DNA of 64,000 bases, taken from Arcobacter sp. FWKO B. GTDB taxonomy: Bacteria > Campylobacterota > Campylobacteria > Campylobacterales > Arcobacteraceae. Position 1 is the first letter of the stretch; each line of letters starts with the position of its first letter. Positions 21,691 through 39,019 of the stretch are shown in pieces. Under the pieces are notes generated by a model. It ran no database searches. It was not told the origin of the DNA and saw only the letters and a list, made by a program, of their open reading frames with translations. Where the stretch lies: positions 496,001-560,000 of the forward strand of contig NZ_CP041403.1 in the NCBI RefSeq assembly GCF_014844135.1, given 5' to 3'. The translations under genes and the position numbers were made by a program.

Positions 21691-22674
21691 ATGAAAACAA
21701 AAATATTTATACTTTTTATTTTTTTTCACTTGCACCTATTTGCTAATAGTGAAGTATTTTATTCTATCCAACTATTTAGCTCAAATGACAAATCATTTGC
21801 AATAGAGTTTGCACAACAACTACCACAAAATATTCAAAAAGATACTTTAATAATCCCTTTTACAAAATCTGTTGCTGTTAGATACAAACAAGCTATAAGC
21901 TCTAGTGAGCTTGATGAAGCACTAAAAGAGATAAAATTACTTGGTTTTAAAGATGCTATTATTACACAAACTAGATATGAAAGGCTAAGTACTGTTATAG
22001 ATTTTCAAATGCACTCTGATTCTGACATGTTAGAAGAACAAAATACTATCTTAAACGATGAAGATGAGATGGTACAAAATGCTATAGTAGTAACTCCTCC
22101 TCCACATGAAGAACCTATCTTAATAAGTGAAAATGAAAAAACAACTATTTTATTAAATGCTGATGAATATTTTAGTAAACATAACTATAGAAAAAGTCTT
22201 GAACTATATGAAAAAGCTTATTTTGGAGGTCATAACTCAAAAGATATTGAGGTAAACATAGGATATATCATAGGGCTTTTGCAAGATTCTCAAAAAGCTT
22301 CTGATTTTACTACTATTGTAAATGAAAGAGAGGCTTTTTTATATGCTGTAGGGATGGGCTTCTTAGAAGTAGATAGAGATGATTTGATAAAACATCTTAT
22401 TAATCCTAGGCTTTTTTATGATGAAGATGGATATTTGCTATTGCTTTTGGCTATAGTATATGAAAAAGAACAAAATTATACTACATCAAAAGAGTTTTAT
22501 AAGGATGCCTATACAAAAAATAGGTTTAATCCATATTTTGGCTATTTATATGCAAGAATACTTGATATTACTGGTGACAACTTACAAGCTTTAGATATAT
22601 ATAAAAGAACACAAAGAATAGCACAAAACGAACTGCAAGATTATATTACTACAAGAATCAAAGAATTAAGATGA
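21691..22674 (+). CDS. SPOR-like/TPR pilus-associated protein (MshN-like position)
   Basis: This 327-residue protein starts with a signal peptide (KIFILFIFFHLHLFANS). Residues ~22-115 have the beta-alpha pattern of a SPOR domain (FYSIQLFSSNDKSFAIEFA, then LKEIKLLGFKDAII). After an acidic linker, residues ~150-320 show TPR-like helical pairs (ADEYFSKHNYRKSLELYEKA, ARILDITGDNLQALDIYK). In MSHA loci a TPR protein, MshN, follows the secretin region, and this gene has that position. It starts two bases after the broken secretin and overlaps the next prepilin by four bases. Possible roles are peptidoglycan binding and pilotage of the machine. Confidence 0.7.
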   Translation: MKTKIFILFIFFHLHLFANSEVFYSIQLFSSNDKSFAIEFAQQLPQNIQKDTLIIPFTKSVAVRYKQAISSSELDEALKEIKLLGFKDAIITQTRYERLSTVIDFQMHSDSDMLEEQNTILNDEDEMVQNAIVVTPPPHEEPILISENEKTTILLNADEYFSKHNYRKSLELYEKAYFGGHNSKDIEVNIGYIIGLLQDSQKASDFTTIVNEREAFLYAVGMGFLEVDRDDLIKHLINPRLFYDEDGYLLLLLAIVYEKEQNYTTSKEFYKDAYTKNRFNPYFGYLYARILDITGDNLQALDIYKRTQRIAQNELQDYITTRIKELR

Positions 22675-24539
22675 AAAAAAGAGCTTTTACTGTTGTTGAA
22701 TTAGCTGTTGTACTTATTATTATTGGGCTTTTAGTAGGTGGTGGTGTAGGAATTATGGGTGTACTTACCCAAAAAGCAAAACTATCAGAAACAAGACAAA
22801 GTATAGAAGCACTTGAGCAGTCAATCTTAGGCTATGTACAAAGAACAAAAAGGCTTCCTAATACTCTAAATACATTAGGTATAAAAACAACTGATGCTTA
22901 CAATAAATCTATACAATACTTTACTATGGATGAAATTGATAATATTTGTGATCAAAAACCTGAAAACTATCTTCAAGTACAAGACAATACACTCTTGCCA
23001 AGTAACCTTAAAACTGACATTGCATTTATACTAATTGCTGATGGTGAAAATAGATGTAACCAAACAGGTGATAATATTGAAGAGACTTTTATAGTATCAA
23101 ATCAATATGAGAGTATAAACTGCCTTGATGGTACAGCTGGACAATATGATGATATTGTAAGATATATGGATATTGATGGACTAAGAAAGCTTGTATGCAG
23201 TGCTTTTAATATATCTACTTATATACTTCCAACAGGTACGCAATGGGAGTATTATACAGCAAATTTAGGGGCTAGTGATGGTGTAGCACCTTATGTTTGG
23301 AGCCTTGATGGTGGTAGTTCACTCCCTATGGGACTAAGTATTACAGGCTCAAACATCTCTGGGACTCCTGAAGTACATGGAAGCTATAACTTTACAGTAG
23401 TAGCAACCGATGCTGAGGGAAAAGTAGCTAAGAAAAATCTAAATATTACACTTAGTTCAAATTTACCAAGAATTGTGACAGATTATCTTGCATTTGGAAT
23501 AAAAAATGTTAATTATCCAAATACTGCACTAAGTGCTGATGGTGGAAAGCCAGGTGGTTATACTTGGAATTTAGTAAGTGGTGCGTTGCCTCCTGGTTTG
23601 CTTTTGCTTGATCAGTGGATATATGGGCAACCAACGACAGAAGGGACTTACTCTTTTACAGTCTCTGTTACAGATACAGCAATGCAAACAACAACAAAAA
23701 CTTTATCAATCGCAATAAATCCTCAAAGTACTGGAGGAGGTGGAGGAGAAGATCCACCACCTCCTCCACCTCCACCTGGGGTTTGTGTACCAGGAAAAGA
23801 AATATTTACTTATACTGGCACTATGCAGTATTTTACAGTACCTGAGTATTGTACAAAACTTACATTTAAAGTATGGGGTGCTGGTGGTGGCGGCGGAACT
23901 AGCAGTACTGGTGGTGCAGGTGGATATGCAAATGGCGAGCTTAATAGTGTAGAAGGTGGCTGGATTTATAATGTACTTGTTGGCGGTGGTGGTGTTGGTG
24001 TTGGTATGGCTACTGGAGGATACGGTGGCGGTGGAAACGGTGGTGTTACTGGTGGACAAAAAGGAGCTGGGGCTGGTGGAAGAAGTGAAGTAAGTGGCTC
24101 TTCTTCTGTTATTATTACTGCTGGTGGTGGCGGTGGCGGTGGAGTAAGCAACGCTGGTGGTGGTGGCGGTGGAAACACTGGATATAATGGCTTAGGCACC
24201 AACTCAGGACAAGGTGGTACACAAATAGCTGCTGGTGCTGGGTATGATGGAGGAAGTGGAAGCAATGGTGGAAATGCAACCGTAAGCACAAACAACCAAA
24301 ATGGTGGTGGTGGCGGTGGCGGCTACTTTGGTGGTGGAGCTGGAAGAGGAACTACTGATAGAGCTGGCGGTGGAGGCGGAAGCGGATATATAGGTGGTGT
24401 TGCAAATGGTATAAATCAAGCTTCTACCACACAAACTCCACCTAACAACGCTGATACAGACTATATACTTGGTATTGGAGTTGGTGCAAATAGTGCTGGA
24501 GTTGGAGGGAATGGACTAGTAGTTATTTACTACGAATAA
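22671..24539 (+). CDS. giant prepilin with Ig-like and glycine-rich adhesin domains
   Basis: This protein has 622 residues. Leader MKKRA is followed by FTVVELAVVLIIIGLLVGGG: a prepilin with Glu at +5 but Ala instead of Gly before the cleavage site. Residues ~195-265 and ~290-355 are two putative-Ig (He_PIG-like) domains with the LPMGLSI/SGTPEVHGSYNFTVVATD pattern repeated as LPPGLLL/YGQPTTEGTYSFTVSVTD. An eight-proline run links to a C-terminal domain (~residues 375-620) that starts with FTYTGTMQYFTVPEYC and FKVWGAGGGGG and is dominated by Gly runs, like the glycine-rich domain of ALK receptors and some phage adhesins. It is probably a minor pilin sitting at the pilus tip as adhesin. It is the last plus-strand gene of the locus. 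Confidence 0.8.
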   Translation: MKKRAFTVVELAVVLIIIGLLVGGGVGIMGVLTQKAKLSETRQSIEALEQSILGYVQRTKRLPNTLNTLGIKTTDAYNKSIQYFTMDEIDNICDQKPENYLQVQDNTLLPSNLKTDIAFILIADGENRCNQTGDNIEETFIVSNQYESINCLDGTAGQYDDIVRYMDIDGLRKLVCSAFNISTYILPTGTQWEYYTANLGASDGVAPYVWSLDGGSSLPMGLSITGSNISGTPEVHGSYNFTVVATDAEGKVAKKNLNITLSSNLPRIVTDYLAFGIKNVNYPNTALSADGGKPGGYTWNLVSGALPPGLLLLDQWIYGQPTTEGTYSFTVSVTDTAMQTTTKTLSIAINPQSTGGGGGEDPPPPPPPPGVCVPGKEIFTYTGTMQYFTVPEYCTKLTFKVWGAGGGGGTSSTGGAGGYANGELNSVEGGWIYNVLVGGGGVGVGMATGGYGGGGNGGVTGGQKGAGAGGRSEVSGSSSVIITAGGGGGGGVSNAGGGGGGNTGYNGLGTNSGQGGTQIAAGAGYDGGSGSNGGNATVSTNNQNGGGGGGGYFGGGAGRGTTDRAGGGGGSGYIGGVANGINQASTTQTPPNNADTDYILGIGVGANSAGVGGNGLVVIYYE

Positions 24540-25751
24540 CTACCCAACTTGCCCTATAAGATCATAGATAGGTCCAAGAAGAGCTAACATAATAGTTCCC
24601 ATAAATGCACCAACTATTACCATAAGAGCTGGTTCTATGATTTTTGTTATATTTTCAGCCATATAATCTACTTTTTCATAGTGATAACTTGAAATTTCTT
24701 TTAGTTGTCTATCTATATCACCAGTTTGTTCTCCTACAGAAAGCATCCTAATAGAAAATGGTGAATAAAGATTTGTATCTTTTAAAGCAAGGGATAGTTG
24801 CTCCCCTTTTTCTATCTTTAATATAGCTTCTGCTATATTTTTTTTATATACTTCATTTTGTATATTGTTTTGTAAAACATGCATAGCATCAAATATGGGA
24901 AGCCCAGAATTGATAGAAAGTCTTAGATATTCACAAATAAATGCGATATTAAAGTTTTTTTGCAATGATGAGATAATAGGAATTTTTAGTAATAATTTAT
25001 GAAAATTATATCTTGCTATATATGAGTGTTTTACCGCATATCTGATTAATATAAAAATCCCAACAAAAACACTTAAAACTTCTAAACCATACTTTTGTAA
25101 ATAATCAGATGATGAAATAAATGCCAAAGTTATTGGAGGCATAACAATATTCATACTTTGAAAAAGAGCAATGATTTGAGGTAATACATATATCATCCAC
25201 ACAAGCATAGCTACAATTATAGCAGTAATTGCAAATGATGGATAAATTAAAGCTTGTGTTGCTTTTTTCTTAAGATTTTCAATCTTTTCTAAAAACTCAG
25301 CACCTCTTTTTAGAGTTTCTTCTAATTCTCCTGTTTTTTCACCTATTACAATAAGCCCTATTATTAAAGGGGTGAAAATATACTCATATTTTCTCATAGC
25401 CTTTGAAAGTGATGTTCCAGTACTTATATTTGATGCAATGTCTTTCATAACATATGCCAAATCTTTATTTTGCACATCTAAAGCCATATCTTTTATACCA
25501 TCATAGAGTGGCACTCCAGATTTGACTATGGTATATAAATTTTTTAAAAGTTCTATTACCTCTTCTTTACTTACCCTTTTTTTTATAAAATTACCAAGAG
25601 TCCAATTAAAATAAGCAGGTACTTCTTTGATATCTAATAATACTTTATTTTCATTTTGAGCTTTTGTAAAAAGATCATCAATACTACTTGCTTCTATTAT
25701 AGCTCTTTTTTCATTGCCACTTTCATCTATTTGTTTGACAAAAAAGTACAT
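24540..25751 (-). CDS. mshG: type IV pilus/type II secretion platform protein (MshG/PilC/GspF)
   Basis: This 403-residue polytopic inner-membrane platform protein couples the ATPases to pilin insertion. It has the duplicated T2SSF domain: GVPLYDGIKDMA with LKRGAEFLEKIENLKKKA in the first half, and SGLPIFDAMHVL, SVGEQTGDIDRQLKEIS in the second, plus three main membrane segments (about residues 170-190, 220-240, 375-395). The start overlaps the stop of mshE by one base. The C-terminus abuts the convergent giant prepilin gene with no spacer. Confidence 0.92.
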   Translation of the reverse strand: MYFFVKQIDESGNEKRAIIEASSIDDLFTKAQNENKVLLDIKEVPAYFNWTLGNFIKKRVSKEEVIELLKNLYTIVKSGVPLYDGIKDMALDVQNKDLAYVMKDIASNISTGTSLSKAMRKYEYIFTPLIIGLIVIGEKTGELEETLKRGAEFLEKIENLKKKATQALIYPSFAITAIIVAMLVWMIYVLPQIIALFQSMNIVMPPITLAFISSSDYLQKYGLEVLSVFVGIFILIRYAVKHSYIARYNFHKLLLKIPIISSLQKNFNIAFICEYLRLSINSGLPIFDAMHVLQNNIQNEVYKKNIAEAILKIEKGEQLSLALKDTNLYSPFSIRMLSVGEQTGDIDRQLKEISSYHYEKVDYMAENITKIIEPALMVIVGAFMGTIMLALLGPIYDLIGQVG

Positions 25752-27418
25752 TAAATTATAACCCTATCAATCTCTTCTAAAGTCGTAATACCTTCTAAAA
25801 CTCTTCTTAGCCCATCTGTTTTAAATGATGTCATCCCTTTAGAGAGTGCAACTTTTTCAATATCATAAGTAGTATTGCCTTTTACTATCATCTCTTTTAT
25901 TTCATCATCAACTTCCAAAAACTCTACAATAACACTTCTACCTAGATAACCCCTATGGTTACAACTTGGACATCCTACTTTTTCATAAATAGTTACTTTA
26001 TCTGTTGGAATAGTATCAATATCTTCTTTTTTATATTTATATTTCAACAATTCACTTTTATCAATAACTACCTCATTTTTGCACTCATCACAAAGCTTTC
26101 TAATAAGTCTTTGAGCTATAATTCCAAGCAAACTTGAAGCTATCATAAAAGATTGTACACCAAGGTCATGAAGTCTTGCTATAGTGCTAGGTGCATCATT
26201 TGTATGTAGAGTTGAAAGTACAAGATGCCCTGTAACTGAAGCTCTAAGAGCAAGTTGAGCTGTATCACTATCTCTAATCTCACCAAGAAGTATCACATCT
26301 GGATCTTGTCTCATAAATGTTTTTAATGCATTTGCATAACTATATCCTGCTTTCTCATTTACTTGTGTTTGTCTTATAAATGCAAATCTATACTCTATTG
26401 GATCTTCTATTGTTAGTACATTTTTTTCCAAAGAGTTGATTTTTCTTAGTGCTGAGTAAAGTGTAGTAGTTTTACCACTCCCTGTAGGTCCAACAACAAG
26501 TACAAGTCCATATGGCTTTTGAAATATCCTTTCTATTCTTGAACCTATATCATCACTAAAACCTAGTGAAGAGATATTAAACAATATTCCACTTTGGGAT
26601 AAAATCCTCACTACTAAGTTTTCACCAGAATATGTAGGAAGAGTAGATATCCTAAGATCATAGTGTTTACCTAAAAAGTCATAAACCATACCACCATCTT
26701 GTGGAAGTCTAAGTTCAGCAATATTTAATGAACTTAGTATTTTTACACGGGATATTATCTCTTGATGCATCGATATAGGATACGAATAGTAGTGTTTTAA
26801 AACACCATCTATTCTAAAAAACACATGACTTAACTCTTCTTCTGGCGAAATATGAATATCAGTCGCTCTATCTTTGATCCCATTTTTTATAAAAAGGTCT
26901 AACAATTCAACAATATTTGCATTTTCTCCATTAAGTACAGATTTGATTATATTGATAATTTTATCTTCCAAAGGATTACTCAACTGATAGTAATAAAGCT
27001 GTACATAGTATGCAATAGTGCTTTTTGGACTCATAAAGAACTTGACTTTTTTACCTGTAGTTCTTACAATTAAATCTTCAACTCCCAAGTCATTAGGATC
27101 CCAAGTAGCAACATATATAAAGTCATCCTCTACTTTAAAAGGCAAAATAGACTTAGACAATGCAAAATCTTCTTCAATAGCTTTTAAAGCCTCTTTAGAT
27201 GGTATAATAGTTGATAAATTTATATATTCCACTTGGTATTGAGAAGCTAAAGCTTGAGCCACCTCTTCAGATGTCACAAAGTCCAAATCTTCCAATATTT
27301 CCCCAAAAAACTTCGTACTTGCAATTTGAGCTTTTAGTGCAACTTCAATTTGTTTTGCTGTGATAAATCCTAACCCTTGAAGTAATTCTCCGATTTTCTT
27401 GTGATCTTTATGGGGCAT
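25751..27418 (-). CDS. mshE: pilus extension ATPase (MshE/GspE) with c-di-GMP-type MshEN domain
   Basis: This is a 555-residue assembly ATPase. The N-terminus has two 24-residue blocks separated by five residues (KIGELLQGLGFITAKQ... and FFGEILEDLDFVTSEE...), the MshEN arrangement that binds cyclic di-GMP in MshE. The catalytic part has DIHISPEEE, Walker A VVGPTGSGKTTTLYSAL, TIEDPIEY, Walker B DVILLGEIRDSDTA and SVTGHLVLSTLHTNDA. A tetracysteine zinc motif (CDEC then CPSC) is present, as in GspE and PilB but not in PilT. It is transcribed with mshG, convergent to the rest of the pilus genes. Confidence 0.93.
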   Translation of the reverse strand: MPHKDHKKIGELLQGLGFITAKQIEVALKAQIASTKFFGEILEDLDFVTSEEVAQALASQYQVEYINLSTIIPSKEALKAIEEDFALSKSILPFKVEDDFIYVATWDPNDLGVEDLIVRTTGKKVKFFMSPKSTIAYYVQLYYYQLSNPLEDKIINIIKSVLNGENANIVELLDLFIKNGIKDRATDIHISPEEELSHVFFRIDGVLKHYYSYPISMHQEIISRVKILSSLNIAELRLPQDGGMVYDFLGKHYDLRISTLPTYSGENLVVRILSQSGILFNISSLGFSDDIGSRIERIFQKPYGLVLVVGPTGSGKTTTLYSALRKINSLEKNVLTIEDPIEYRFAFIRQTQVNEKAGYSYANALKTFMRQDPDVILLGEIRDSDTAQLALRASVTGHLVLSTLHTNDAPSTIARLHDLGVQSFMIASSLLGIIAQRLIRKLCDECKNEVVIDKSELLKYKYKKEDIDTIPTDKVTIYEKVGCPSCNHRGYLGRSVIVEFLEVDDEIKEMIVKGNTTYDIEKVALSKGMTSFKTDGLRRVLEGITTLEEIDRVII

Positions 27419-27524: not shown

Positions 27525-28460
27525 TTATTTTTTCTTAATGATTAGTTTATTTTTGTAGTCTATACCACTAAAATCAATAAATTCATCTAAGCTTCTAATA
27601 TTTCCCAACCCATAATGACTCTCTTTCATACCATCACCATAAAAAATCTTATTTAATCTTTTGATAGCTCTTTGTTTTAAATGAGCGTAATTTAAAACTC
27701 TCTTTTTTTCTGTGTCTTTATGCCAATGGTGATTTGTATATTCTGTATTTGCTTTTTTATATAAATGATATAGTGGTATATGTACAGGATGATATATATC
27801 CCATCCTCTTGTGTAAGCTCTAATTGCTAAGCTTTGTTCTTCACCGTGAAAATATAAAAATGGATCATAAGGAACTTCATCAATGAACTTTCCACTTGTA
27901 AAAATAAATCCACCAGCTAAATGATAACCATTTATAGGCTCTTTTGAAAATATATGTTCTGCTCTAAATCTTAGTATACAACTTTCTTGCGAAAGAGTTG
28001 TATCAGGGTGGACTTTTAGACATAATGCTGTCTTATTTAGTTGAGGTTTATGTTGAGGAATATGGTTTTCATCAAAAGTAAAACCATATGGATATGTTGA
28101 TATTATTGGTTTTGGTGATTTATCTTTTAATTGATTATATAAACTAATTAACTGCTCATCCCAGTCTTGCTCAAAAAGTGTATGTGAATCAATTTGTAAT
28201 AAAAAATCTTCACTATTATAAAGGGAAAAAGCAATATTTCTAGCCCAACATACACCAAAAGTTTCAAGATAATCAACATATACATATCTAACCTGTTTTG
28301 AAAATTCTAATTCATCTACAAAGTTTTTTTGAGAATTTATATTTTGATCAACAACACCAAAAAAAATATTATTTGGAAACTTTGCTTTTTGAATACAATC
28401 TTTTAGTGTAAAAAACAATTCTTCATCTATATAAGAAGCTAAACTAACAAAAATGGTCAA
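27525..28460 (-). CDS. GlcNAc-transferase family glycosyltransferase (Skp1/mucin polypeptide type)
   Basis: This is a 311-residue GT-A fold enzyme. It opens with IFVSLASYIDEELFFTLKDCI, has CWARNIAFSLYNSEDFLLQID, then the metal-site DSHTLFEQDWDEQL, HLAGGFIFTSG and FHGEEQSLAIRAYTRGWDIYHP. This series is typical of the family that includes the Dictyostelium Skp1 hydroxyproline and trypanosome mucin threonine GlcNAc-transferases (CAZy GT60). The start is TTG with aaagg upstream. It follows the Thr/Pro-repeat protein by 86 bases on the same strand, so that protein is the likely acceptor; this is inference. An alternative acceptor is the nearby pilin. No signal peptide is seen, so action is cytoplasmic. 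Confidence 0.8.
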   Translation of the reverse strand: MTIFVSLASYIDEELFFTLKDCIQKAKFPNNIFFGVVDQNINSQKNFVDELEFSKQVRYVYVDYLETFGVCWARNIAFSLYNSEDFLLQIDSHTLFEQDWDEQLISLYNQLKDKSPKPIISTYPYGFTFDENHIPQHKPQLNKTALCLKVHPDTTLSQESCILRFRAEHIFSKEPINGYHLAGGFIFTSGKFIDEVPYDPFLYFHGEEQSLAIRAYTRGWDIYHPVHIPLYHLYKKANTEYTNHHWHKDTEKKRVLNYAHLKQRAIKRLNKIFYGDGMKESHYGLGNIRSLDEFIDFSGIDYKNKLIIKKK

Positions 28461-28546
28461 TTCAATTACCTTTACTTAGAAATTACAGCATCTTATCCAA
28501 ATTTATCTATATGTAGGGTAAAGCCCTACATATAAATAGTTGATAA

Positions 28547-31500
28547 TTACTGCTCTCCACCACCAAAAGAATTGTTATTATCCATTAAGCCACATTCAAG
28601 CATAATAGTAAGATTGCCATTTGATAATACATCAAAACAATTTCCAGTTTCGTCCGTTGTAGATGATTTTTCCCAACCTTGAGTATCACCTTCTATTGTA
28701 ACTTTATCATCACTATCACCTAGTATTGTCAGCATACCTGATGACTTATCTTGTAACATATCACTCAAGTTTAGAGTAAGATTATTTTGCTCACCTTGCG
28801 TCATATCTATAACTTCAAGATTTTCTATACTATCTAAATCAAGAACAACCTCTCCACTATCAAGAATATTTAAAGTATTTGTAGAATTTGGCATTTCTAT
28901 AACACCGTCTTGATTTACAGTAATTGTTGCTGTATCTCCACTACCTAACTCTGTAGATGTAACACTAGCTGTTATTGAAGATAACTCTTCATTTGGCATA
29001 GGTGCTGGTGATGTACTAAAGCTTACTACTGCATTACCATCTTCATCTACTGAAACCGTGCTTTGTACACCTTCAGGTAAACCACTCAATGACACATCAG
29101 ATAATACCTCACTACCATCCGTATCACTTAATCCAGCATTTACATTTACACTATAAGTGAATGTAGGAATTGACCATTCACCCTCATGTAAAACTGCTCC
29201 CATTGCAGATAATGCATCTTCATCAATTACAGTTTCAATTACATCTTTCATTATTGGTTCAACCTCAACCATAGGAGGAGTAGCTTCCAATGAATACCCA
29301 TCAATATGGATAGCTGAAATTCCAGTTGAAACTATAACTACACTTGCAAAATTTCCTTGTGCTTCATAAGTATTTGTACCATCTTGAAGTTTTGAACTAC
29401 CTACTTCATTTCCATTTGCATCATAAAATCTAACTTCCCCTGATGTGTTACCAGTTATTTTTACATCAACAGTAATTGTATTTGCAGTATTGCCATCTAA
29501 ATCAATAGTATAGCCATTATCCTGAGATGTATCATCATCTCTACCAAATACTTTACCAATTACAGCTTTTACTTTTCCAACAATATTTTTTATTAAACCA
29601 CCACTATTTCCGTTGTTTAGTATAACTTTGTCGTCGCTACTGATTGTTATAGGCTCACTAGTTTGATAAAATTTGCCATCAACCTCAACTATACCATTAG
29701 CACTATTTGCATCTATATCAACTTCTTGACCAACAACAACTTCTTTTGTAGGAACATCTGCAACTACTTCATAAGATACACTCTCTTCTATTGACATAGA
29801 CAATACTGGCATAGAAGCACTATCATCTATCTCCTCACTTAAGTCAAAATCACTATAAAGTTTTGTTATAGTAGCTTTATTGCTTAAAGGATCTGATGTA
29901 TCATTACTATTATTAAACCCACCTAAATGTTCACCTGTTTGTGTGTAAACTTCTGTACCCGCTTTTATAACATAACTTTCTACTGTCAATCCAGTTTGTG
30001 CCTCAATAGCATTTATGAATTTTTCTGGGTCGGAAGGATCTTTTACATCACCTTGATATTCATCAATTTTTAATGTCGTACCATCACTTAAATAATATTT
30101 CACATGTGATATACCATGTGGTAATGGTTGAGACTCTACTGGTGATTGAGTAACTTCTTCAGTTGGTACTTCAGTTGGAGTTTCTGTTGGAGCTTCTGTA
30201 ACTGCTTCTGTCGGTACTTCTGTTGGTGTTTCAGTCACTTCCTCAGTTGGTACTTCAGTCACTTCTTCTGTTGGAGCTTCTGTCGGCACTTCTGTAACCT
30301 CTTCAGTTGGCACTTCTGTTGGAGTTTCAGTCACTTCTTCAGTCGGTACTTCAGTTGGAGCTTCTGTAACTTCTTCAGTTGGTTGTTCAGTCACTTCTTC
30401 TGTTGGAGTTTCTGTTGGAGCTTCTGTCGGCACTTCTGTAACCTCTTCAGTTGGCACTTCTGTTGGTGTTTCAGTCACTTCCTCAGTCGGTACTTCTGTC
30501 GGAGTTTCTGTAACTTCTTCAGTCGGAGCTTCTGTAACCTCTTCTGTTGGCTGTTCAGTAACTTCTTCTGTTGGAGTTTCTGTCACTTCCTCAGTCGGTA
30601 CTTCAGTCGGAGTTTCTGTAACTTCTTCAGTTGGAGTTTCAGTTGGTTGTTCTGTCACTTCCTCAGTTGGTACTTCAGTCGGTGTTTCTGTAACTTCTTC
30701 AGTTGGTTGTTCAGTCACTTCTTCAGTTGGCACTTCTGTTGGTGTTTCAGTCACTTCCTCAGTTGGAGTTTCTGTTGGAGCTTCAGTCACTTCCTCAGTT
30801 GGTTGTTCAGTCACTTCTTCTGTTGGAGTTTCAGTCGGTGTTTCTGTAACTTCTTCAGTTGGCTGTTCAGTCACTTCTTCAGTCGGTACTTCAGTTGGTT
30901 GTTCAGTAACTTCTTCTGTTGGTATTTCAGTCGGAGCTTCTGTAACTGCTTCTGTCGGTACTTCAGTTGGTTGTTCAGTCACTTCTTCTGTTGGTACTTC
31001 AGTTGGAGTTTCAGTCACTTCTTCTGTTGGTGTTTCTGTTGGTGTTTCTGTAACTTCTTCTGTTGGAGTTTCAGTCGGTGTTTCTGTCACTTCCTCAGTT
31101 GGTACTTCAGTCACTTCTTCTGTTGGTATTTCTGTTGGTGTTTCTGTAACTTCTTCAGTCGGTTGTTCAGTCACTTCTTCAGTTGGCACTTCTGTTGGTG
31201 TTTCAGTCACTTCCTCAGTTGGAGTCTCTGTTGGAGCTTCAGTCACTTCCTCAGTTGGTTGTTCAGTAACTTCTTCTGTTGGTATTTCAGTCGGAGCTTC
31301 TGTAACTGCTTCTGTCGGTACTTCAGTTGGCTGTTCAGTCACTTCTTCTGTTGGAGCTTCTGTAACTTCTTCAGTTGGAGTTTCAGTTGGAGTTTCCGTT
31401 GAAGTTTGAATTGGAGTTTCTGTCGGTGCTGTTGCAAAAGTTTGTGTAGTTTCAGCCGTAGCTGTTGTAGTATTGATTCCACCTAAATTAGCTTCAAGAT

Positions 31501-31885
31501 CATTACCTTGTATATTTCTGCCACTCATATCAGTATCTAACTGCTCTGTATCAACATCTGCATTAACATCAAATGCATCAACTAACTGAGTATCTAGTGA
31601 AGCATCAACAACACCATCAATTACTGTTTGTGTAAAATCATTATCATTTATTTGGCTATCCAAAATGTCATAAGTGCCAGTTTGAAAGAAATTTTCATCA
31701 AGTCTTATTGTGGCTGGTCCTTGAACATCTATACTTCTTCCATTATCAAATAGTATCCTAGCAAACTCTCTAATAGTAAGTAAACCACCATTATCAGAGA
31801 TAACATCCCTATCTCTTAAAATTTCTTCACCACTATCTAAGGTCACCAAACCTCTTATATCTGTTATTTTTGCCACATTTGCCAT
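28547..31885 (-). CDS. LapA/BapA-like type I-secreted protein with mucin-like Thr/Pro/Glu repeats
   Basis: This is a 1112-residue acidic surface protein. Residues ~1-90 resemble the N-terminal retention module of LapA-type adhesins (AKITDIRGLVTLDSGEEI, then ARILFDNGRSIDVQGPATI). Residues ~153-582 are repeats of PTEEVTEAPTE-like units in which about one residue in three is Thr. The remainder has beta-rich domains (YTIDLDGNTANTITVDVKI; VNAGLSDTDGSEVLSDVSL) and ends in the LNLSDMLQ/LTILGDSDDKVTIEG pattern common at the C-terminal secretion end of such adhesins. No GGxGxD calcium repeats and no Sec signal peptide are seen. Two Cys lie near the C-terminus (GNCFDV, LECGL). The neighbouring TolC, ABC and HlyD-type genes should form its exporter. 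Confidence 0.82.
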   Translation of the reverse strand: MANVAKITDIRGLVTLDSGEEILRDRDVISDNGGLLTIREFARILFDNGRSIDVQGPATIRLDENFFQTGTYDILDSQINDNDFTQTVIDGVVDASLDTQLVDAFDVNADVDTEQLDTDMSGRNIQGNDLEANLGGINTTTATAETTQTFATAPTETPIQTSTETPTETPTEEVTEAPTEEVTEQPTEVPTEAVTEAPTEIPTEEVTEQPTEEVTEAPTETPTEEVTETPTEVPTEEVTEQPTEEVTETPTEIPTEEVTEVPTEEVTETPTETPTEEVTETPTETPTEEVTETPTEVPTEEVTEQPTEVPTEAVTEAPTEIPTEEVTEQPTEVPTEEVTEQPTEEVTETPTETPTEEVTEQPTEEVTEAPTETPTEEVTETPTEVPTEEVTEQPTEEVTETPTEVPTEEVTEQPTETPTEEVTETPTEVPTEEVTETPTEEVTEQPTEEVTEAPTEEVTETPTEVPTEEVTETPTEVPTEEVTEVPTEAPTETPTEEVTEQPTEEVTEAPTEVPTEEVTETPTEVPTEEVTEVPTEAPTEEVTEVPTEEVTETPTEVPTEAVTEAPTETPTEVPTEEVTQSPVESQPLPHGISHVKYYLSDGTTLKIDEYQGDVKDPSDPEKFINAIEAQTGLTVESYVIKAGTEVYTQTGEHLGGFNNSNDTSDPLSNKATITKLYSDFDLSEEIDDSASMPVLSMSIEESVSYEVVADVPTKEVVVGQEVDIDANSANGIVEVDGKFYQTSEPITISSDDKVILNNGNSGGLIKNIVGKVKAVIGKVFGRDDDTSQDNGYTIDLDGNTANTITVDVKITGNTSGEVRFYDANGNEVGSSKLQDGTNTYEAQGNFASVVIVSTGISAIHIDGYSLEATPPMVEVEPIMKDVIETVIDEDALSAMGAVLHEGEWSIPTFTYSVNVNAGLSDTDGSEVLSDVSLSGLPEGVQSTVSVDEDGNAVVSFSTSPAPMPNEELSSITASVTSTELGSGDTATITVNQDGVIEMPNSTNTLNILDSGEVVLDLDSIENLEVIDMTQGEQNNLTLNLSDMLQDKSSGMLTILGDSDDKVTIEGDTQGWEKSSTTDETGNCFDVLSNGNLTIMLECGLMDNNNSFGGGEQ
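30140..31429 (-). repeat. Thr/Pro/Glu coding repeat of the mucin-like protein
   Basis: About 1.3 kb of near-identical short units encodes strings such as EVPTEEVTETPTE. Codons vary (act/acc in the Thr, gtt/gta in the Val), so units differ more in DNA than in protein, which suggests selection on the protein. Repeat number may vary between strains. The long opposite-strand frame here is an artefact. Confidence 0.9.
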
Positions 31886-31896
31886 AAGACACTCCT

Positions 31897-31913
31897 AATA
31901 TAAATTATATTAG
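31897..31913. promoter_or_regulatory. palindrome upstream of the mucin-like gene
   Basis: TAATATAAATTATATTA is a perfect 8-bp inverted repeat around one base, placed just before the ribosome binding site (aggag at 31891-31895 in reverse). A TATAAT on the minus strand at 31944-31949 could be the -10 of an internal promoter. An operator or simple AT-rich chance are both possible. Confidence 0.3.
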
Positions 31914-31971
31914 TTATGCTACTACAAAATTTTATAAATGTAAATTATACTTTGGTATAAATTTTTAATAT

Positions 31972-32526
31972 TTACTCTAGAAAAGATTCTTCAGATATAA
32001 AAAGCTCAGTATTTGGTATGTAATAATTGCCATTATAGTTATAGCTATCAATTTGAAAATATTTATTTACTCTATAAGATGATTCAATAACAGTCCCCTT
32101 TCGTAGCAAAAGAACCTCCTCACCTTTTTTATTAAATACTATAGAATTTCGTTTTATTTCAAATGGAACTCTATCAAAATCGTATGTTTTTTTATCAATG
32201 TTTGTTATAAAAAGATAATTATCAATATCTTTTACTACTTCCAAAGGTTCTACTTTGTTTGTACTTACAACTTCAGCACTGGCATATGATGAATCAAAAT
32301 CAATAGTCTCTTTAACAGGAAAGTCCATAGATTCTCTTTTTGCCCATGAAGTTGCCAAAACAGAAAATTCATCTACTTTTTGTTCTGTTTTTGTTATTCT
32401 AGCATCCAACTCTTGAAGCTTTTTGTTTATATCTAATACACTAATCAAATCATTTTGATTTGTAGTTGTTGATGAGCAACCAACAACAAAAAATACAAAA
32501 AATACAATTAAGTATATTTTCATCAA
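31972..32526 (-). CDS. lipoprotein of the type I secretion operon, unknown function
   Basis: This 184-residue protein has an N-terminal lipoprotein signal (IVFFVFFVVGC, Cys ~17), then a predicted coiled coil (LDINKKLQELDARITKTEQKVDEF read in pieces) and a C-terminal beta-rich region with RVPFEIKRNSIVFNKKGEE and FQIDSYNYNGNYYIPNTEL, which resembles an SH3-like fold but is not a firm match. It lies five bases after the ABC transporter gene. It may anchor or chaperone the secreted mucin-like protein at the envelope. I do not recognise a named family. Confidence 0.6.
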   Translation of the reverse strand: MMKIYLIVFFVFFVVGCSSTTTNQNDLISVLDINKKLQELDARITKTEQKVDEFSVLATSWAKRESMDFPVKETIDFDSSYASAEVVSTNKVEPLEVVKDIDNYLFITNIDKKTYDFDRVPFEIKRNSIVFNKKGEEVLLLRKGTVIESSYRVNKYFQIDSYNYNGNYYIPNTELFISEESFLE

Positions 32527-32531
32527 ACTCC

Positions 32532-34715
32532 CTATTTTCCGCTAAGTTTTTTTACAACTTCTTCTTTTTTACCATCTAATGCCACTTGTCCATCATCCAT
32601 TACTATTATACGATCAGCAAGGTCTAGTAATGTAGTTTTATGAGTGACTAAAATCATAGTTTTATCACTTAAATACTCTTTTATATTTTTGATAAATCTA
32701 GCTTCAGTTGATGAGTCCATAGCACTAGTAGGCTCATCTAGTAAAACTATAGGATAATCTTGTAAAATTGCTCTTGCGATAGCTATACTTTGTCTTTGTC
32801 CACCAGAAAGAAGTGCACCTCTTTCTCCAACAGGCATATCAAAGCCCTTTGGATGTTTATTAACAAAATCCATCACACCACTTATTTCAGCAGCTTTTAT
32901 TATCTTATCATCATCAATATATGGTAATCTATAAACAATATTTTCTTTAACAGTACCATTAAAGAGTAAAACATCTTGAGAAACATATGCTATATTCTTT
33001 CTAAGCTCAGTAGGATCAAGTTGTTTAATATCTATATTATCAATAAGAATAGCCCCTTCATTAGGAACATAAAGCGATAAAAGCAACTTATGAACAGTTG
33101 ATTTTCCAGAGCCTATTTTGCCAATAATAGCAACATGTTCACCTTCACTTATCTTAAATGATACATTATTTAATGTTGACTTATCAGAATTAGGATAACT
33201 AAAGCTAACGCTTTTAAATTCAACATTACCTCTATATTCAGGTCTAGCAACAAATTTCTTCCCTTGAGGATGCTCTACAGGCATATTCATTATATCATCT
33301 AACGCCTTGTAAGAAACTTTTGTATGGTGAAATGTGGACAGTAAACTTGCAACTTGCCCCATAGGTGAAATAGCCCTTGAAGAAATAATAACAACAGCTA
33401 TTAAAGCTCCCATCGACAACTCTTTTTCCCCTATCATATATGTACCTAATATGATTATAGCAACTGTATTTAACTGTAGCAAAAATGCTGTCACAGTTGT
33501 AATTGAAGCTGAAATAGTTTTAGAAGAAATACTCTTATCTGCAATTTGTGAAGTTGCTTCTTCCCATTTCCATTGAGAATATCCTGTTGCACCAAGAGAT
33601 TTTAATGTTTCTATAGAAGATAGTGACTCAATTAAAACACCATTTTTTAAAGAAGCAGCTTCATATGAATCTTTGATACTATTTTGTAATTTTTCTTTTG
33701 CATAATAAGTATATAAAATTATAAATAAAATTATTACAACTGGAACTATAACCAAAATCCCACCAATATAATAAATAGCAATCAAAAATATTATAATAAA
33801 AGGTAAATCTATTAGTAAAGATATTGTTGAAGCTGTAATAAAAGCTCTTATACTCTCAAATTCCTTTAAAATATTTGCCATAGAACCTACAGAACTAGGC
33901 ATTGATGACATTTTTAGATCAAGAACCCTCTCAAAGATAAGTGAAGATGCTATAATATCTGTCTTTTTACCAGCAGTTTCAAGAAAAAAAGTTCTCAAAA
34001 ATTTAAGAGCAACATCAATTCCATAAACAATAATGACCCCAATAGCAAGTATCCACAAAGTATCTTTTGCATCATTTGGTATAACTCTATCATATACATT
34101 CATAGTAAAAAGTGGTGTTGCCAAAACAAAAAGGTTAATAAGTAAAGAGGCTATAATAACATCTCTATAGGTATCTCTTACTATTTTCATAGTTCCCCAA
34201 AGCCAATGACTTTCTTTTACCCCACCAATAGCTGTTTGCTTATCATCAAATCTTAGTTCTCTTTTTAATAAAATTGCAAAACCATAATAATATTTATTTA
34301 GCTCATCTAAACTAACAAGACTCTCAACATCCTCAGCCTCAGGCAATAAAATCCTTGCATTTGCCATTTCATCATCAAAACCAAGCAATATACAAGCTCT
34401 AAGCTCATCTTGTGGTGTCTTACCATTTAAAAGGAGAATACAAGGTAAAACCAATGGATTGATATCTTGAAGTTTTGTTTTTAATACTTTTGTTTTAAAA
34501 CCAGCTTTTGATGCAGCTCTTGAAAAAAGTGATTTTGAACTGTATTTAGAAAATAAAATAGGGGTATTCTTACCTTCTTCCACTGGCAAACCAGCAATCA
34601 AAGACTCTTTTGAATATGGTCTTCCACTCATTTTACAAAAAATAGCCAAACAATCCAATATTGGATCGTCTTTGTACTCTTTTACTACTACCTCACCAAA
34701 TGTAATATGATGCAT
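32532..34715 (-). CDS. type I secretion ABC transporter (LapB/HlyB-like)
   Basis: This is a 727-residue exporter. Residues ~1-150 form a peptidase C39-like domain that lacks a recognisable catalytic Cys motif near the start (CLAIFCKMSGRPYSKESL), as in LapB/HlyB-type degenerate domains. Then come a six-helix membrane domain beginning ESHWLWGTMKIVRDTYRDV and ATPLFTMNVYDRVIPN, and an ATPase domain with Walker A GKIGSGKST, signature LLSGGQRQSIAIARA, Walker B VLLDEPTSAMD and H-loop VTHKT. It is second in the operon, 17 bases after the TolC-type gene. The expected substrate is the 1112-residue protein encoded downstream. Confidence 0.92.
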   Translation of the reverse strand: MHHITFGEVVVKEYKDDPILDCLAIFCKMSGRPYSKESLIAGLPVEEGKNTPILFSKYSSKSLFSRAASKAGFKTKVLKTKLQDINPLVLPCILLLNGKTPQDELRACILLGFDDEMANARILLPEAEDVESLVSLDELNKYYYGFAILLKRELRFDDKQTAIGGVKESHWLWGTMKIVRDTYRDVIIASLLINLFVLATPLFTMNVYDRVIPNDAKDTLWILAIGVIIVYGIDVALKFLRTFFLETAGKKTDIIASSLIFERVLDLKMSSMPSSVGSMANILKEFESIRAFITASTISLLIDLPFIIIFLIAIYYIGGILVIVPVVIILFIILYTYYAKEKLQNSIKDSYEAASLKNGVLIESLSSIETLKSLGATGYSQWKWEEATSQIADKSISSKTISASITTVTAFLLQLNTVAIIILGTYMIGEKELSMGALIAVVIISSRAISPMGQVASLLSTFHHTKVSYKALDDIMNMPVEHPQGKKFVARPEYRGNVEFKSVSFSYPNSDKSTLNNVSFKISEGEHVAIIGKIGSGKSTVHKLLLSLYVPNEGAILIDNIDIKQLDPTELRKNIAYVSQDVLLFNGTVKENIVYRLPYIDDDKIIKAAEISGVMDFVNKHPKGFDMPVGERGALLSGGQRQSIAIARAILQDYPIVLLDEPTSAMDSSTEARFIKNIKEYLSDKTMILVTHKTTLLDLADRIIVMDDGQVALDGKKEEVVKKLSGK

Positions 34716-34732
34716 ATCTAAAAACCTTTAAT

Positions 34733-36538
34733 TTAATTGGAATTATATTTTCTATATAGATTTTGCTTAAGAGCTATAATCTCAACTCTTGGCATACTTG
34801 CTTTTGCCTCAGGAGGTAATTTTTCTAATGCAGTACTTGCTTCTTCAAATGTATCAAAAATACCATACATGATTTTGTATATAGTCTTATCGGCTCCAAA
34901 TGCAAAACCAAAAGCATCATTTTGCAAACCATTTCTTAATAAAAAGCTATTAACCTCATCAATAGAACCAGAATTTGCAAGATTTATTGTATATTTTGTA
35001 GTAGGTGCACCTAAAAATCTATCTTTAAAAGAATCTATATTTTCTTGAATAACTTCTGTTGTAGTAGTATTTATGTCATTAACCGATGATTCATCTAAAT
35101 ACTCATATGAAACCTCATTTTCAACTAAAGGCAACACTTCAATTTCCAAACTTACATTTGCTTTTGATTTTTCCAAAACACTATAGTTTTGTTCTAAATA
35201 TTTACTCACATCTTTAAATAAATTCTCAATATTATTTGATTCATTGTTCCAGATTTTATCTCTTTTATCTATTAAAATCTCATCAGACAATACCCCAATA
35301 GCCTCAAGAACTCTATAATGTGCATACAATAAATCATATGTTGCTACAATAGTATTTCTCTTAGTAGAAATATAATCACTATGAGCATCTAGTACACTTG
35401 TCAAATCTTTTGTTCCCAAATCAAACTCATCAATTGTTGCATCCAAAACAAGTTGTCTAGTCTTAAGAAAATCACTTAATCTTCTAAGTTTTTCTTGATT
35501 AATTGTGTAGCTATTCCAAGCAAGTGCAAGTCTATTTGATATCTGTTGAGAACTTTTATCGATATAAATTCTTTTTTCACTTATATATTCAAGTGATTTT
35601 TTCTTTTTAGCAATATCTTTTCCACCATTATATAAGTTGTATGCTAATTCTATACCCATTTTATATTCATTGGAAACTATAGAGTTATCTTCTTTATACA
35701 TAGAATCATTTAGTTTATATTGACCAACCAAATTAACATTTGGCTGAAATGCTTTCAAATCCCTTTTGTATTCACTTATAGCTACATCAACATTTGTTAA
35801 AGCAACTAGCATTGATGGATGATACAAAAGGGCATAATCCAAAGCCTCTTCTTCACTATTTGGAACACTGTATGAAAATGAAGGCTTAACAAGCTCATTT
35901 ACATCAAATTTTGTCTGAATATGATTTCTTAATGTGGCTATAGCATCATTATAATTTAACTTATCTATAGCTAAATTTACACTACTTTCTTCAAGGCTAG
36001 CCTTTGAACTTTCAAATTCTAACTTGGTACCAAAACCTCTTTGTACTTTTCTAGTAATTTTATTATAAATATCTTCACTGATTTGATAAGACTCGCTTGA
36101 AGCACTTAGTAAATCTTTTGTTTTTAAAACATTTATATAACTCTCAGTATATCTCAACGCTAATAAATTTTGAGCCTCTTTAAGATAATATTCAGCACTT
36201 AAATATCTACTATTTTGCAGTTTTGCTTCATAACTAGCCTCTAATCCATCATAAATAGGTTGTCTAATATTTAATGAATATTCATCTGAGTTTGTATGTT
36301 CTCCACTTTTAGGAGTACGAGAATTTGAAGTTTTTTTTGATGTTTCTAAAGTACCTCTAAAATCAACACTTGGATATTTTAAACCTTTTGCAATATCAAT
36401 ATCATACTTAATTTTTTTAAGTTCATTAAGTCTTACTTGTACTTCTGGATCTTTTTGTAAAGTTCTTTCAAAGCCCTCCTTGAGTGTAAAACCAAAAAGA
36501 GAAGAAATAAATAACATAATAATTAAAAATATTTTCAT
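34733..36538 (-). CDS. TolC/LapE-type outer membrane channel with C-terminal SPOR domain
   Basis: This is a 601-residue protein starting MKIFLIIMLFISSLFG, a signal peptide. I chose this ATG over a farther upstream in-frame ATG (36706) because it gives a clean signal sequence and has a purine-rich ggggat upstream. Residues ~20-430 follow the TolC pattern with duplicated helical coiled coils (LNIRQPIYDGLEASYEAKLQ, LAYNLYNGGKDIAKKKKSLE, TKDLTSVLDAHSDYISTKRN). The last ~85 residues form a SPOR-like domain (KYTINLANSGSIDEVNSFL, YKIMYGIFDTFEEASTALEKL). SPOR domains bind denuded peptidoglycan, so the channel may be placed at sites of wall remodelling. It is first in the operon. Confidence 0.85.
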   Translation of the reverse strand: MKIFLIIMLFISSLFGFTLKEGFERTLQKDPEVQVRLNELKKIKYDIDIAKGLKYPSVDFRGTLETSKKTSNSRTPKSGEHTNSDEYSLNIRQPIYDGLEASYEAKLQNSRYLSAEYYLKEAQNLLALRYTESYINVLKTKDLLSASSESYQISEDIYNKITRKVQRGFGTKLEFESSKASLEESSVNLAIDKLNYNDAIATLRNHIQTKFDVNELVKPSFSYSVPNSEEEALDYALLYHPSMLVALTNVDVAISEYKRDLKAFQPNVNLVGQYKLNDSMYKEDNSIVSNEYKMGIELAYNLYNGGKDIAKKKKSLEYISEKRIYIDKSSQQISNRLALAWNSYTINQEKLRRLSDFLKTRQLVLDATIDEFDLGTKDLTSVLDAHSDYISTKRNTIVATYDLLYAHYRVLEAIGVLSDEILIDKRDKIWNNESNNIENLFKDVSKYLEQNYSVLEKSKANVSLEIEVLPLVENEVSYEYLDESSVNDINTTTTEVIQENIDSFKDRFLGAPTTKYTINLANSGSIDEVNSFLLRNGLQNDAFGFAFGADKTIYKIMYGIFDTFEEASTALEKLPPEAKASMPRVEIIALKQNLYRKYNSN

Positions 36539-36616: not shown

Positions 36617-36662
36617 AACCTTGCATATAATAAAAAAATGAATGTTTTTAAAGGAAATTAGT

Positions 36663-38402
36663 GTGACTAAAACTTCAAGCAATGTTATAGATGACAAATT
36701 AACCAAAAGCTTTAGATTTCAAAACAGAGAATTGCTTGATAATTATGTTATTTTGGCAATAACTGATATTGATGGTATCATAAAACATGTAAGTACCAAT
36801 TTATGTCAAGTATTTGGATATAAGAATTCTGAGCTATTGGACAAGCCGTACTCATTTTTAATATCAAAAGATTCAATCAAAACATTTGAAATACAATTTA
36901 ATGATGCAAAAGTAAACAAAAGTATATGGAAAGGTGAGATGAAACACTCATCTAATAGTCAAAATGTAATTTGGACAGATACTATTATTACGCCATTATT
37001 TGATGATGACCATCAATTAGTTGGTTTTATACTTGCTAGTAATGACATTACTCAAGAAAAAAAATTAAAAAAAATCAATGAAGAAAATCTTTTAACAAAA
37101 AAATATGACAAAGGTATTTTAGAATTTATGCCAAGCTTAAGTGCAGCAGTGCTACTTAAAAATGCCAGCAGTTTACACAAAGTATTATGGATGATATCTT
37201 TTACAGTTATAGTTTCATTAATATGGGCATATTTCTCAAAAGTTGATGATATTGTTAAAACAACTGGTAAAATTATAACAACTACAAATATACAAACAAT
37301 TTCAACTATTTACTCAGGTACATTAGAAGAAATCTTTGTAAGAGAAGGTGCTGTTGTTAAAAAAGGAGATATATTATTTCAAATGTCAGTTGATGATTTC
37401 AAATCAGAGTATGAAAAGAAATTTTTGGAACATTTAGCTGCAAAGGCTAGAAGCCATAGATTAGAAGCCGAAGCTGAAGAAAGAAATATTTTTGTTGATC
37501 CTGAAATAATACAGTTAAACAAAACAATTATGGATAATGAAGTTATGCTTTTTGAAAGCAATAAACGAAAACTTGTTACAACTATCAAAATTTTACAAGA
37601 AAAACTAATACAAAAAGAAAACGAATTAAAAGAAAATGAAAACAAACTCATTATTTTGAAAAACAATCATTTACTGTTATCAAAGGAAATTGATATAAAA
37701 AAATCACTTGTAAAAGATAGAATTATCTCAGAAGTAGATTTTTTACAATTACAAAGACGATATAATGATACAGACCTTGAACTAAAAAAAACTCAAGCAG
37801 CAATTCCTAGTATCAAATCTTCTATTCAAGAGTTATACAAAAATATAGAAGAAGCAAAAGAAAAGTATAGAAATGATGCAAAGGTTGAGATAGTAAAAGT
37901 ATATTCAGAAATTCAAAAACTAAATGAGGATTTAAATCTATTAAAAGATAAAATAGAAAAATCAGCCATAAAATCACCTTCAGATGGTGTAGTCAATTTA
38001 ATTACAGTAAAAACAAAAGGTGAAGCAATATCTCCTGGACGAGTCTTAATGGAGATTATCCCAGAAACTGAATTTGTACTAGCTGAAGTAAAAGTTTCTC
38101 CAGCTGAAATTGGATTTTTATATATAGGACAAAGTGTTAGGGTAAAACTTCATGCTTATGACTTTAGTTTATATGGTGGATTAATGGGTGAAATAAATTA
38201 TATATCAGCTGATACAATTATGGATGAGAATACAAAAGCAGAGCACTACATAATACACATTAAATCAATGCAAAAATATGTTGGTGATAATGAAAATTTA
38301 ATAATACGACCTGGTATGACAGCAGATGCTGATATAATTACAGGTAAAAAAACTATATTAGATTATATTTTGCGACCTGTTTTAAAAACACTTCAAATCT
38401 AA
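36663..38402 (+). CDS. PAS domain fused to HlyD-type secretion adaptor
   Basis: This is a 579-residue fusion. Residues ~25-132 form a PAS fold with PAC end (ILAITDIDGIIKHVS, FGYKNSELLDKPYSFL, LVGFILASNDITQEKK). A membrane helix follows (~175-192, LWMISFTVIVSLIWAYF), then a membrane-fusion protein: lipoyl-like half motif (YSGTLEEIFVREGAVVKKGD), a long coiled coil, and the HlyD closing motif (IKSPSDGVVNLITVKTKGE, ILEIIPE-like LMEIIPETEFVLAEVKVSP). The PAS domain would lie in the cytoplasm and the adaptor in the periplasm. I prefer the GTG with aaagga seven bases upstream over the ATG at 36642, which has no ribosome binding site. Confidence 0.87.
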   Translation: MTKTSSNVIDDKLTKSFRFQNRELLDNYVILAITDIDGIIKHVSTNLCQVFGYKNSELLDKPYSFLISKDSIKTFEIQFNDAKVNKSIWKGEMKHSSNSQNVIWTDTIITPLFDDDHQLVGFILASNDITQEKKLKKINEENLLTKKYDKGILEFMPSLSAAVLLKNASSLHKVLWMISFTVIVSLIWAYFSKVDDIVKTTGKIITTTNIQTISTIYSGTLEEIFVREGAVVKKGDILFQMSVDDFKSEYEKKFLEHLAAKARSHRLEAEAEERNIFVDPEIIQLNKTIMDNEVMLFESNKRKLVTTIKILQEKLIQKENELKENENKLIILKNNHLLLSKEIDIKKSLVKDRIISEVDFLQLQRRYNDTDLELKKTQAAIPSIKSSIQELYKNIEEAKEKYRNDAKVEIVKVYSEIQKLNEDLNLLKDKIEKSAIKSPSDGVVNLITVKTKGEAISPGRVLMEIIPETEFVLAEVKVSPAEIGFLYIGQSVRVKLHAYDFSLYGGLMGEINYISADTIMDENTKAEHYIIHIKSMQKYVGDNENLIIRPGMTADADIITGKKTILDYILRPVLKTLQI

Positions 38403-38410: not shown

Positions 38411-39019
38411 ATGAAAGTAATAGTATATTCAAAATCAAACTTCGTTTCAAATGAGTTGAAACAAAATAGTTTATTTACTAATAGTTTATTAGAACTTGAC
38501 AACTTGAATGATATGTTAAAAATTATAAAAGAAGTTAAAGAAGATACAGTTATTGTATTGCATCATATAGATGATTTTCCAGCAGATACAACTACTATTA
38601 CAAATGTTGCAAAAAACAACCCACAATTATTTTTAATTGCATTATCAAATATACCTGAAAATATACAAGGATGTAGATTATTACAAATGGGATATAAAAG
38701 TTATTTACATTCATTTTCAAATATAGATATACTAAAAAGTGCTATAGATTCAGTAGCAAGTGGAAATATATATGTTTACCCTAAACTAATGGAATTTTTA
38801 GTTTCACAAGTACCTAGCTCTAAATTAAATGAAAAAAAACTTGACTCCCTTACGAAAAAAGAATTAGAAGTATTAGAATTAGTTGCAAAAGGTTATAGCA
38901 ACTCAAAAATTGCAACTAGTCTTGATATAGCTGAAATTACAGTAAAAAAACATATAAGCTCAATGTTTGAAAAGCTATGTGTAAGCGATAGGCTATCACT
39001 AGCGTTAATATTAAAATAA
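38411..39019 (+). CDS. LuxR-type regulator with pseudo-receiver domain
   Basis: This is a 202-residue protein. The C-terminus is a LuxR/FixJ helix-turn-helix (LTKKELEVLELVAKGYSN, IATSLDIAEITVKKHISSMFEKL). The N-terminal ~120 residues look like a response-regulator receiver, but the strand that should carry the phospho-acceptor Asp reads VIVLHHIDDFP and no switch Lys motif is clear. This resembles CsgD-type regulators of biofilm genes, whose receivers are also atypical. It lies eight bases after the PAS-HlyD gene and presumably controls the flanking secretion operon. That target is inferred. Confidence 0.75.
   Translation: MKVIVYSKSNFVSNELKQNSLFTNSLLELDNLNDMLKIIKEVKEDTVIVLHHIDDFPADTTTITNVAKNNPQLFLIALSNIPENIQGCRLLQMGYKSYLHSFSNIDILKSAIDSVASGNIYVYPKLMEFLVSQVPSSKLNEKKLDSLTKKELEVLELVAKGYSNSKIATSLDIAEITVKKHISSMFEKLCVSDRLSLALILK

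Follow-up and report, generated by a model that had tools for sequence, protein, structure and literature searches.

Organization of the Gene Cluster

The question raised by this locus is whether a bacterial secretion cluster encodes, next to its exporter, both a mucin-like acceptor protein and the enzyme that glycosylates it. The window (the whole stretch of 64,000 nucleotides from Arcobacter sp. FWKO B that was analyzed, positions 496001-560000 of a genome in one contig) contains five minus-strand genes that follow each other in the transcription order TolC-family protein, LssB-type ABC exporter, lipoprotein-like protein, 1112-aa adhesin and GT60 enzyme. The preliminary description of this DNA had named the region a type I secretion operon, with coordinates and numbers that proved correct. 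The clustering of exporter, adhesin and enzyme stands, but the HlyD-type adaptor and the LuxR-type regulator are encoded on the plus strand and the locus is therefore a divergent cluster and not a single operon. Taken as a whole, the cluster very probably makes and exports a mucin-like glycoprotein by means of the GT60 enzyme, the adhesin and the exporter. The features are:

27525-28460, minus strand: GT60 (PF11397) putative polypeptide glycosyltransferase, 311 aa, TTG start (profile, motif, model)
28504-28538, minus strand: 15-bp hairpin without a T-run, between the adhesin and enzyme genes (RNA fold)
28547-31885, minus strand: type I secretion adhesin, 1112 aa, putative acceptor (ORF, profiles)
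28550-28873, minus strand: adhesin C-terminal domain, residues 1005-1112 (homologues in L005 and L188)
30146-31423, minus strand: Thr/Pro/Glu repeat, residues 155-580, proposed glycosylation zone (composition, PF04886)
31661-31885, minus strand: putative N-terminal anchor of the adhesin, residues 1-75 (resembles 5ix9; LapA retention module via homologues)
31972-32526, minus strand: lipoprotein-like protein, 184 aa (62% identity to its counterpart in the orthologous L188 locus)
32532-34715, minus strand: type I secretion ABC permease/ATPase, LssB subfamily (TIGR03375; 90% identical L188 orthologue)
34733-36538, minus strand: TolC-family outer-membrane protein with a SPOR-like C-terminal domain (profiles)
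36642-38402, plus strand: HlyD-type adaptor with an N-terminal PAS domain (profiles)
38411-39019, plus strand: LuxR-type regulator (profile; a related gene adjoins the exporter in L008, L013, L139 and L188)

All three components of an LssB-type type I secretion system were identified by profiles, in agreement with the type I export proposed earlier: the ABC exporter (TIGR03375, 900 bits against a cut-off of 693), the HlyD protein (TIGR01843, above cut-off) and the TolC-family protein, which scored 197.5 bits with TIGR01844 (under the cut-off of 225) and exceeded the cut-off of PF02321. A PAS sensor domain is fused to the cytosolic side of the HlyD-type adaptor and is conserved in L188 (80%), and the HlyD proteins of L008 and L139 lack it; the fusion possibly represents a sensor-gated exporter.

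The gap between the adhesin and enzyme genes is 86 nt long and contains the 15-bp hairpin (RNA fold of 28461-28560, z -4.96), which may tune how much of each protein is expressed or shield the upstream mRNA. Together with the TTG start, the hairpin may lower the amount of enzyme relative to the adhesin. These two features make the co-expression of enzyme and adhesin less certain, which counts against the glycoprotein export reading. Elsewhere in the window, an MSHA-type secretin gene (19091-21688) is interrupted by an IS30-type transposase (20381-21352) that has GAAAATATGCATTT inverted ends on both sides, and a pseudopilin-like protein (22671-24539) combines Ig-like domains with an ALK/LTK glycine-rich domain.

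The Enzyme Is a GT60 Family Member

The assignment of the enzyme to the Skp1/trypanosome mucin GlcNAc-transferase family was borne out. The protein is a full-length PF11397 (GT60) member (200.9 bits against a cut-off of 21, E 5.1e-59) that aligns in two stretches (profile positions 1-45 and 91-350), and a profile search of the 2.24-Mb genome identified its gene as the sole PF11397 gene. No match was found in a search of the NCBIfam profiles. Residues D91-S92-H93 form a DxH motif that is invariant across an alignment of 42 bacterial homologues, which share further invariant stretches such as HGEEQ. DxH is found in GT27 and GT60 where other GT-A enzymes have DxD, and the two families were placed in one clade that has Ser/Thr polypeptide O-glycosylation in common (PMC7185993).

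Structure modeling, which the preliminary description had suggested for the GT-A active site, yielded a GT-A fold close to GT27. The AF2 model has a pLDDT of 94.8 and a pTM of 0.93, and 17 of its 18 top matches in a Foldseek search of the PDB are GT27 polypeptide GalNAc-transferases (best matches GalNAc-T4/T2/TgT3, E about 1e-10). A sequence search of the PDB returned chance repeats only and a profile search of the PDB returned nothing. The enzyme sequence contains no strongly hydrophobic segment that could serve as a signal peptide or membrane anchor and is therefore consistent with a cytosolic location.

The Adhesin Contains a Mucin-Like Repeat

The immediate upstream neighbor of the enzyme gene encodes the candidate mucin-like acceptor, as had been described, its glycosylation being putative. 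The expected repeat of about 430 residues with Thr at roughly every third position corresponds to residues 155-580, 426 aa that consist of 31.0% Thr (132 Thr), 15.7% Pro and 32.9% Glu. The residues are almost exclusively E, T, P, V, Q and A, with Thr at every fourth or second position; the stretch matches the PF04886 'PT' profile (2.5e-24) and has the long Thr/Ser and Pro tandem repeats by which mucin-like proteins are recognized. It contains 66 xPTE (Pro-Thr-Glu) units with 25 different 12-mers among them. Within the P, T and E codons, positions 1 and 2 are invariant and position 3 is varied, all changes being synonymous, and the amino acid pattern has therefore been held while the DNA drifted. 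This pattern argues that selection acts on the repeat and that the array is neither a chance product nor purely a DNA-level phenomenon.

The N-terminal 75 residues resemble a 'cell surface anchoring domain' (5ix9, presumably from the N terminus of the ice-binding adhesin of Marinomonas) with a Foldseek probability of 1.00 and E 0.02 based on a moderate-confidence model. The LapA retention module profile NF033682 did not match the window adhesin at E 0.1; homologous N termini matched it below the cut-off, among them that of L109 (53% identical over 76 aa) at 1e-7. Two PF06035 matches over cut-off, corresponding to LapG-type proteases, are encoded in the genome outside the window. The C-terminal 108 residues share 60% identity with the L005 Thr/Pro-repeat protein and 58% with the repeat-less L188 orthologue.

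An Orthologous Locus Lacks Both Enzyme and Repeat

A genome from another genus of the same family (G089, locus L188) contains the same cluster in the same gene order, with identities of 90% for the ABC exporter, 80% for the PAS-HlyD protein, 62% for the lipoprotein-like protein, 58% for the TolC-family protein and 57% for the LuxR-type regulator. The adhesin is present as well (49% identity at the N terminus). A search of the family genomes found no GT60 in G089, and no Thr/Pro repeat was found in the L188 adhesin, only a short Thr/Pro linker followed by repeats that look Ig-like when read from the sequence. Homologues of the C-terminal domain in other family members that lack GT60 contained no dense Pro-Thr sequence (about 3 kb inspected each). 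The comparison amounts to a natural experiment, in which the exporter stays the same and enzyme and repeat are either both there or both missing.

GT60 Genes Are Associated with Pro-Thr Repeats

Among 104 genomes of the family and 399 genomes of the order, GT60 is rare: only two other carriers were identified, and both encode a secreted Thr/Pro-repeat protein adjoining the GT60 gene. In Aliarcobacter STC_123 (L005) GT60 comes after a protein that has TEAPTEAP repeats and a homologous C terminus, and in Sulfurimonas OB5 the genes TolC-ABC-HlyD-LuxR are followed by GT60 next to a PTQAPTQAP adhesin. Overall, Pro-Thr repeats in real reading frames were present in both GT60 carriers versus one of 397 non-carriers within the 399 order genomes. 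The L005 enzyme (L005:1702-3711), beside its Thr/Pro repeat adhesin, carries a fused Ser/Thr protein kinase domain (PF00069, E 4e-43). Another type I cluster of Sulfurimonas OB5 encodes a PTPAPTEAP adhesin and has no GT60 alongside (L139:8282-9313).

The analysis was extended to 80 further GT60 loci in 79 genomes. PF04886 alone missed PTQA and PTTA repeats (G456, G461), and a purpose-built model (A4) was therefore made. Most order-wide PF04886 matches were tiny frames of simple DNA repeats, and in GC-rich loci a loose 'PT' regular expression and a T+S window scan picked up artefacts in the wrong frame; the analysis therefore relied on profile searches and on dense repeats in frame. With the two profile models, Pro-Thr repeat proteins were identified in 50 of the 79 genomes. 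The preliminary description had set out beforehand that Thr-rich proteins should be found near PF11397 genes, and a repeat protein lies within 20 kb of the GT60 gene in 21 of the 50 repeat-bearing genomes (0.79 expected) or, counting one per lineage, in 11 of 30 (0.50 expected), a strongly favorable outcome of this check. The ratio and not the exponent of the P values is to be relied on, because they take genomes or lineages as independent and positions as uniform and because A4 covered 47 of the 79 genomes. An initial linkage count of 13 out of 22 came from 50 genomes picked after local matches and was recomputed with the other 30. Two candidate cases of near linkage (G515 and G510) were rejected, the repeat and GT60 being on different contigs. 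The two models gave no repeat match in 29 of the 79 genomes and no close linkage in 29 of the 50 repeat-bearing ones, and some GT60 enzymes may therefore act on other acceptors. Pro-Thr repeats are sometimes found without GT60, as in G150, a genome that is 84% complete.

Within the GT60 clade of the window enzyme (nine tree rows), eight of nine genomes encode a Pro-Thr repeat protein, and in the ninth (L013) the contig end cuts off the secreted-protein gene next to GT60. Classes are intermingled in the GT60 tree, the window enzyme grouping with Campylobacterota and three Gammaproteobacteria, which suggests transfer, although single rows could be MAG contamination. A separate sample of eight plasmid GT60 genes was found by enzyme similarity alone; three have a Pro-Thr stretch nearby and five have none. 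In a Phyllobacterium plasmid a Pro-Thr-rich calcium-binding protein is followed by GT60 and then by type I ABC and HlyD genes, in a Klebsiella aerogenes plasmid PTPTPSPTPTP is encoded in the gene adjoining GT60, and in an Azospirillum plasmid PTPTPTP genes lie about 3 kb from GT60 within a contractile-tail cluster.

The GT60 family also occurs in other surroundings. The contractile cluster of the Azospirillum plasmid, with PTPTPTP proteins nearby, is of the tail-sheath type (L151:12001-17228), distant GT60 genes are located in type VI secretion clusters between fimbrial-type and RHS proteins (L154:11971-13374, L156:11992-13344), and jumbo phages of Xanthomonas and Stenotrophomonas (AP018399.1, OP883945.1, OP752703.1) encode homologues with 27-31% identity. 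GT60 is adjoined by a methyltransferase in the Roseateles group (L078:9309-9965), by a sulfatase-fold membrane protein in the Pseudoduganella group (L030:6726-8678) and by a GT2 gene in Massilia (L017:11024-12088), all of which are possible glycan decorators or extenders.

The repeat proteins of GT60 genomes use different exporters. Type I substrates occur in the window, L008, L109 and L110, two-partner proteins bearing TPS and ESPR domains in L026, L070, L118 and L120, an autotransporter in L082, and proteins whose N termini are lipoprotein-like in L020, L029 and L058; the enzyme therefore tracks the repeat and not the exporter. The earlier idea of a dedicated coupling between enzyme, acceptor and type I exporter is supported with one change: GT60 is not confined to type I secretion and in other bacteria also accompanies two-partner, autotransporter and lipoprotein-like repeat proteins.

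Alternative Explanations

This diversity of exporters also favors a general 'PT-repeat' glycosyltransferase with several clients in trans, the adhesin being one of them. Two type I systems with repeat substrates coexist with one GT60 in G330/G461, and enzyme and repeat protein are located on different contigs in G458, G459 and G462. All ten A4 Pro-Thr matches in the window genome, however, fall within this single adhesin and the enzyme is therefore dedicated by default there. A general enzyme of this kind, which has a slightly better than even chance of being correct, refines rather than excludes the glycoprotein export reading. A co-transfer of enzyme and repeat on one mobile block, or another reason for their joint occurrence that does not involve modification, would agree with the patchy and probably horizontally transferred distribution of GT60 and with the IS30-type transposase 6 kb away. 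It is nevertheless quite unlikely: the association is retained in Campylobacterota and in three proteobacterial classes (Alpha-, Beta- and Gammaproteobacteria), where the carrier proteins and exporters are unrelated, and L188 lacks enzyme and repeat while the remaining locus is conserved.

Two further explanations place the acceptor elsewhere. GT-A folds serve many acceptors (Staphylococcus aureus TarS/TarP rank further down among the fold matches) and a GT2 gene adjoins some GT60 genes (L017, L011), as would fit an enzyme that transfers sugar to sugar in polysaccharide or LPS synthesis and is located here by chance. However, the closest folds belong to polypeptide transferases, the neighbor listing of GT60 loci showed no evident capsule or LPS cluster, and GT60 is linked to, and jointly absent with, Thr/Pro repeats, making this very improbable. 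The preliminary description had also considered the pilus as acceptor, and genes of an MSHA-type pilus do follow immediately downstream in the same orientation (24540-27418), next to the Gly-rich pseudopilin (22671-24539). Modification of this pilus or pseudopilin can nearly be dismissed, as no pilus genes recur beside the same-clade GT60 genes of the related loci L005, L008, L009 and L013.

Proposed Mechanism

According to the glycoprotein export reading, the enzyme most likely O-glycosylates Thr residues of the repeat in the cytosol before export. Type I substrates leave the cytosol unfolded, so that a cytosolic enzyme would meet the repeat before export. GT60 would add a GlcNAc-type sugar from a UDP-sugar (presumably UDP-GlcNAc, in alpha linkage) to repeat Thr residues of the unfolded adhesin, the LssB/HlyD/TolC exporter would move the modified protein out of the cell, and the N-terminal anchor would retain it at the cell surface, where the sugar-covered, proline-stiffened repeat could form an extended stalk or coat. 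Which sugar is transferred is the least secure part of this proposal. Overall, the comparative evidence supports it well, the glycosylation of the repeat being putative.

Linkage and the L188 comparison provide a concrete, testable acceptor for bacterial GT60 enzymes and make many bacterial mucin-like glycoproteins predictable from sequence alone. On a broader scale, the odds somewhat favor a widespread and previously unrecognized mucin-type O-glycosylation in Proteobacteria and Campylobacterota, in which one cytosolic GT60 would read Pro-Thr repeats as the acceptor code, any exporter could be used, and descent would be shared with the mucin-initiating enzymes of protists. If true, this would supply glycoprotein engineering with mucin-initiating enzymes that are soluble and cytosolic, and it would be relevant to the origin of eukaryotic mucin-type initiation.

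Comparison with Known Systems

In the open literature, bacterial GT60 enzymes appear to have no assigned function. It contained no paper that treats GT60 and type I secretion together and none on a type I adhesin that is glycosylated and occurs with a retention module and a glycosyltransferase, and PF11397 was cited only by a brown-alga genome paper; as the search covered open papers, these absences are weak evidence. The window adhesin resembles LapA/MpIBP-type adhesins in its LssB-type exporter, the probable fold of its N-terminal anchor (5ix9) and the LapG-like proteases in the genome, but its extender is partly a mucin-like repeat. To our knowledge, no glycosyltransferase partner has been described for adhesins of this type. 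Serine-rich repeat glycoproteins (GtfA/GtfB, accessory Sec) and AIDA-I with Aah share the cytosolic O-modification of low-complexity surface proteins, whereas the enzyme families, exporters and repeat chemistry in the window are different.

The TcOGNT enzyme of Trypanosoma cruzi and Gnt2 of Dictyostelium, UDP-GlcNAc:polypeptide alpha-GlcNAc-transferases that start mucin-type O-glycans, belong to the same PF11397 family and share the DxH motif. A Thr- and Pro-rich acceptor is a further likeness, although only proposed for the window enzyme. The protist enzymes act in the Golgi on Sec-secreted mucins, whereas the window enzyme lacks a signal or membrane anchor and is encoded beside a type I exporter. 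With UDP-GlcNAc and Mn2+, trypanosomal GT60 modifies Pro/Thr-rich peptides, and the T. cruzi activity, with a catalytic domain that resembles Dictyostelium Gnt2, accepts KPPTTTTTTTTKPP and yields GlcNAc-alpha-Thr on mucins (PMC3769586, PMC9472816).

The HMW1C-HMW1A/HMW1B system of Haemophilus influenzae likewise combines adhesin, exporter and glycosyltransferase, and modification before export is proposed for the window as well. HMW1C belongs to GT41, whereas the window enzyme is no GT41-family N-glycosyltransferase but a PF11397/GT60 protein found with a Thr/Pro repeat and type I export. HMW1C moves hexoses onto Asn (PMC2877744). By analogy, the window system may work like HMW1C without being a member of that system, its enzyme family and putative acceptor being those of protist mucins.
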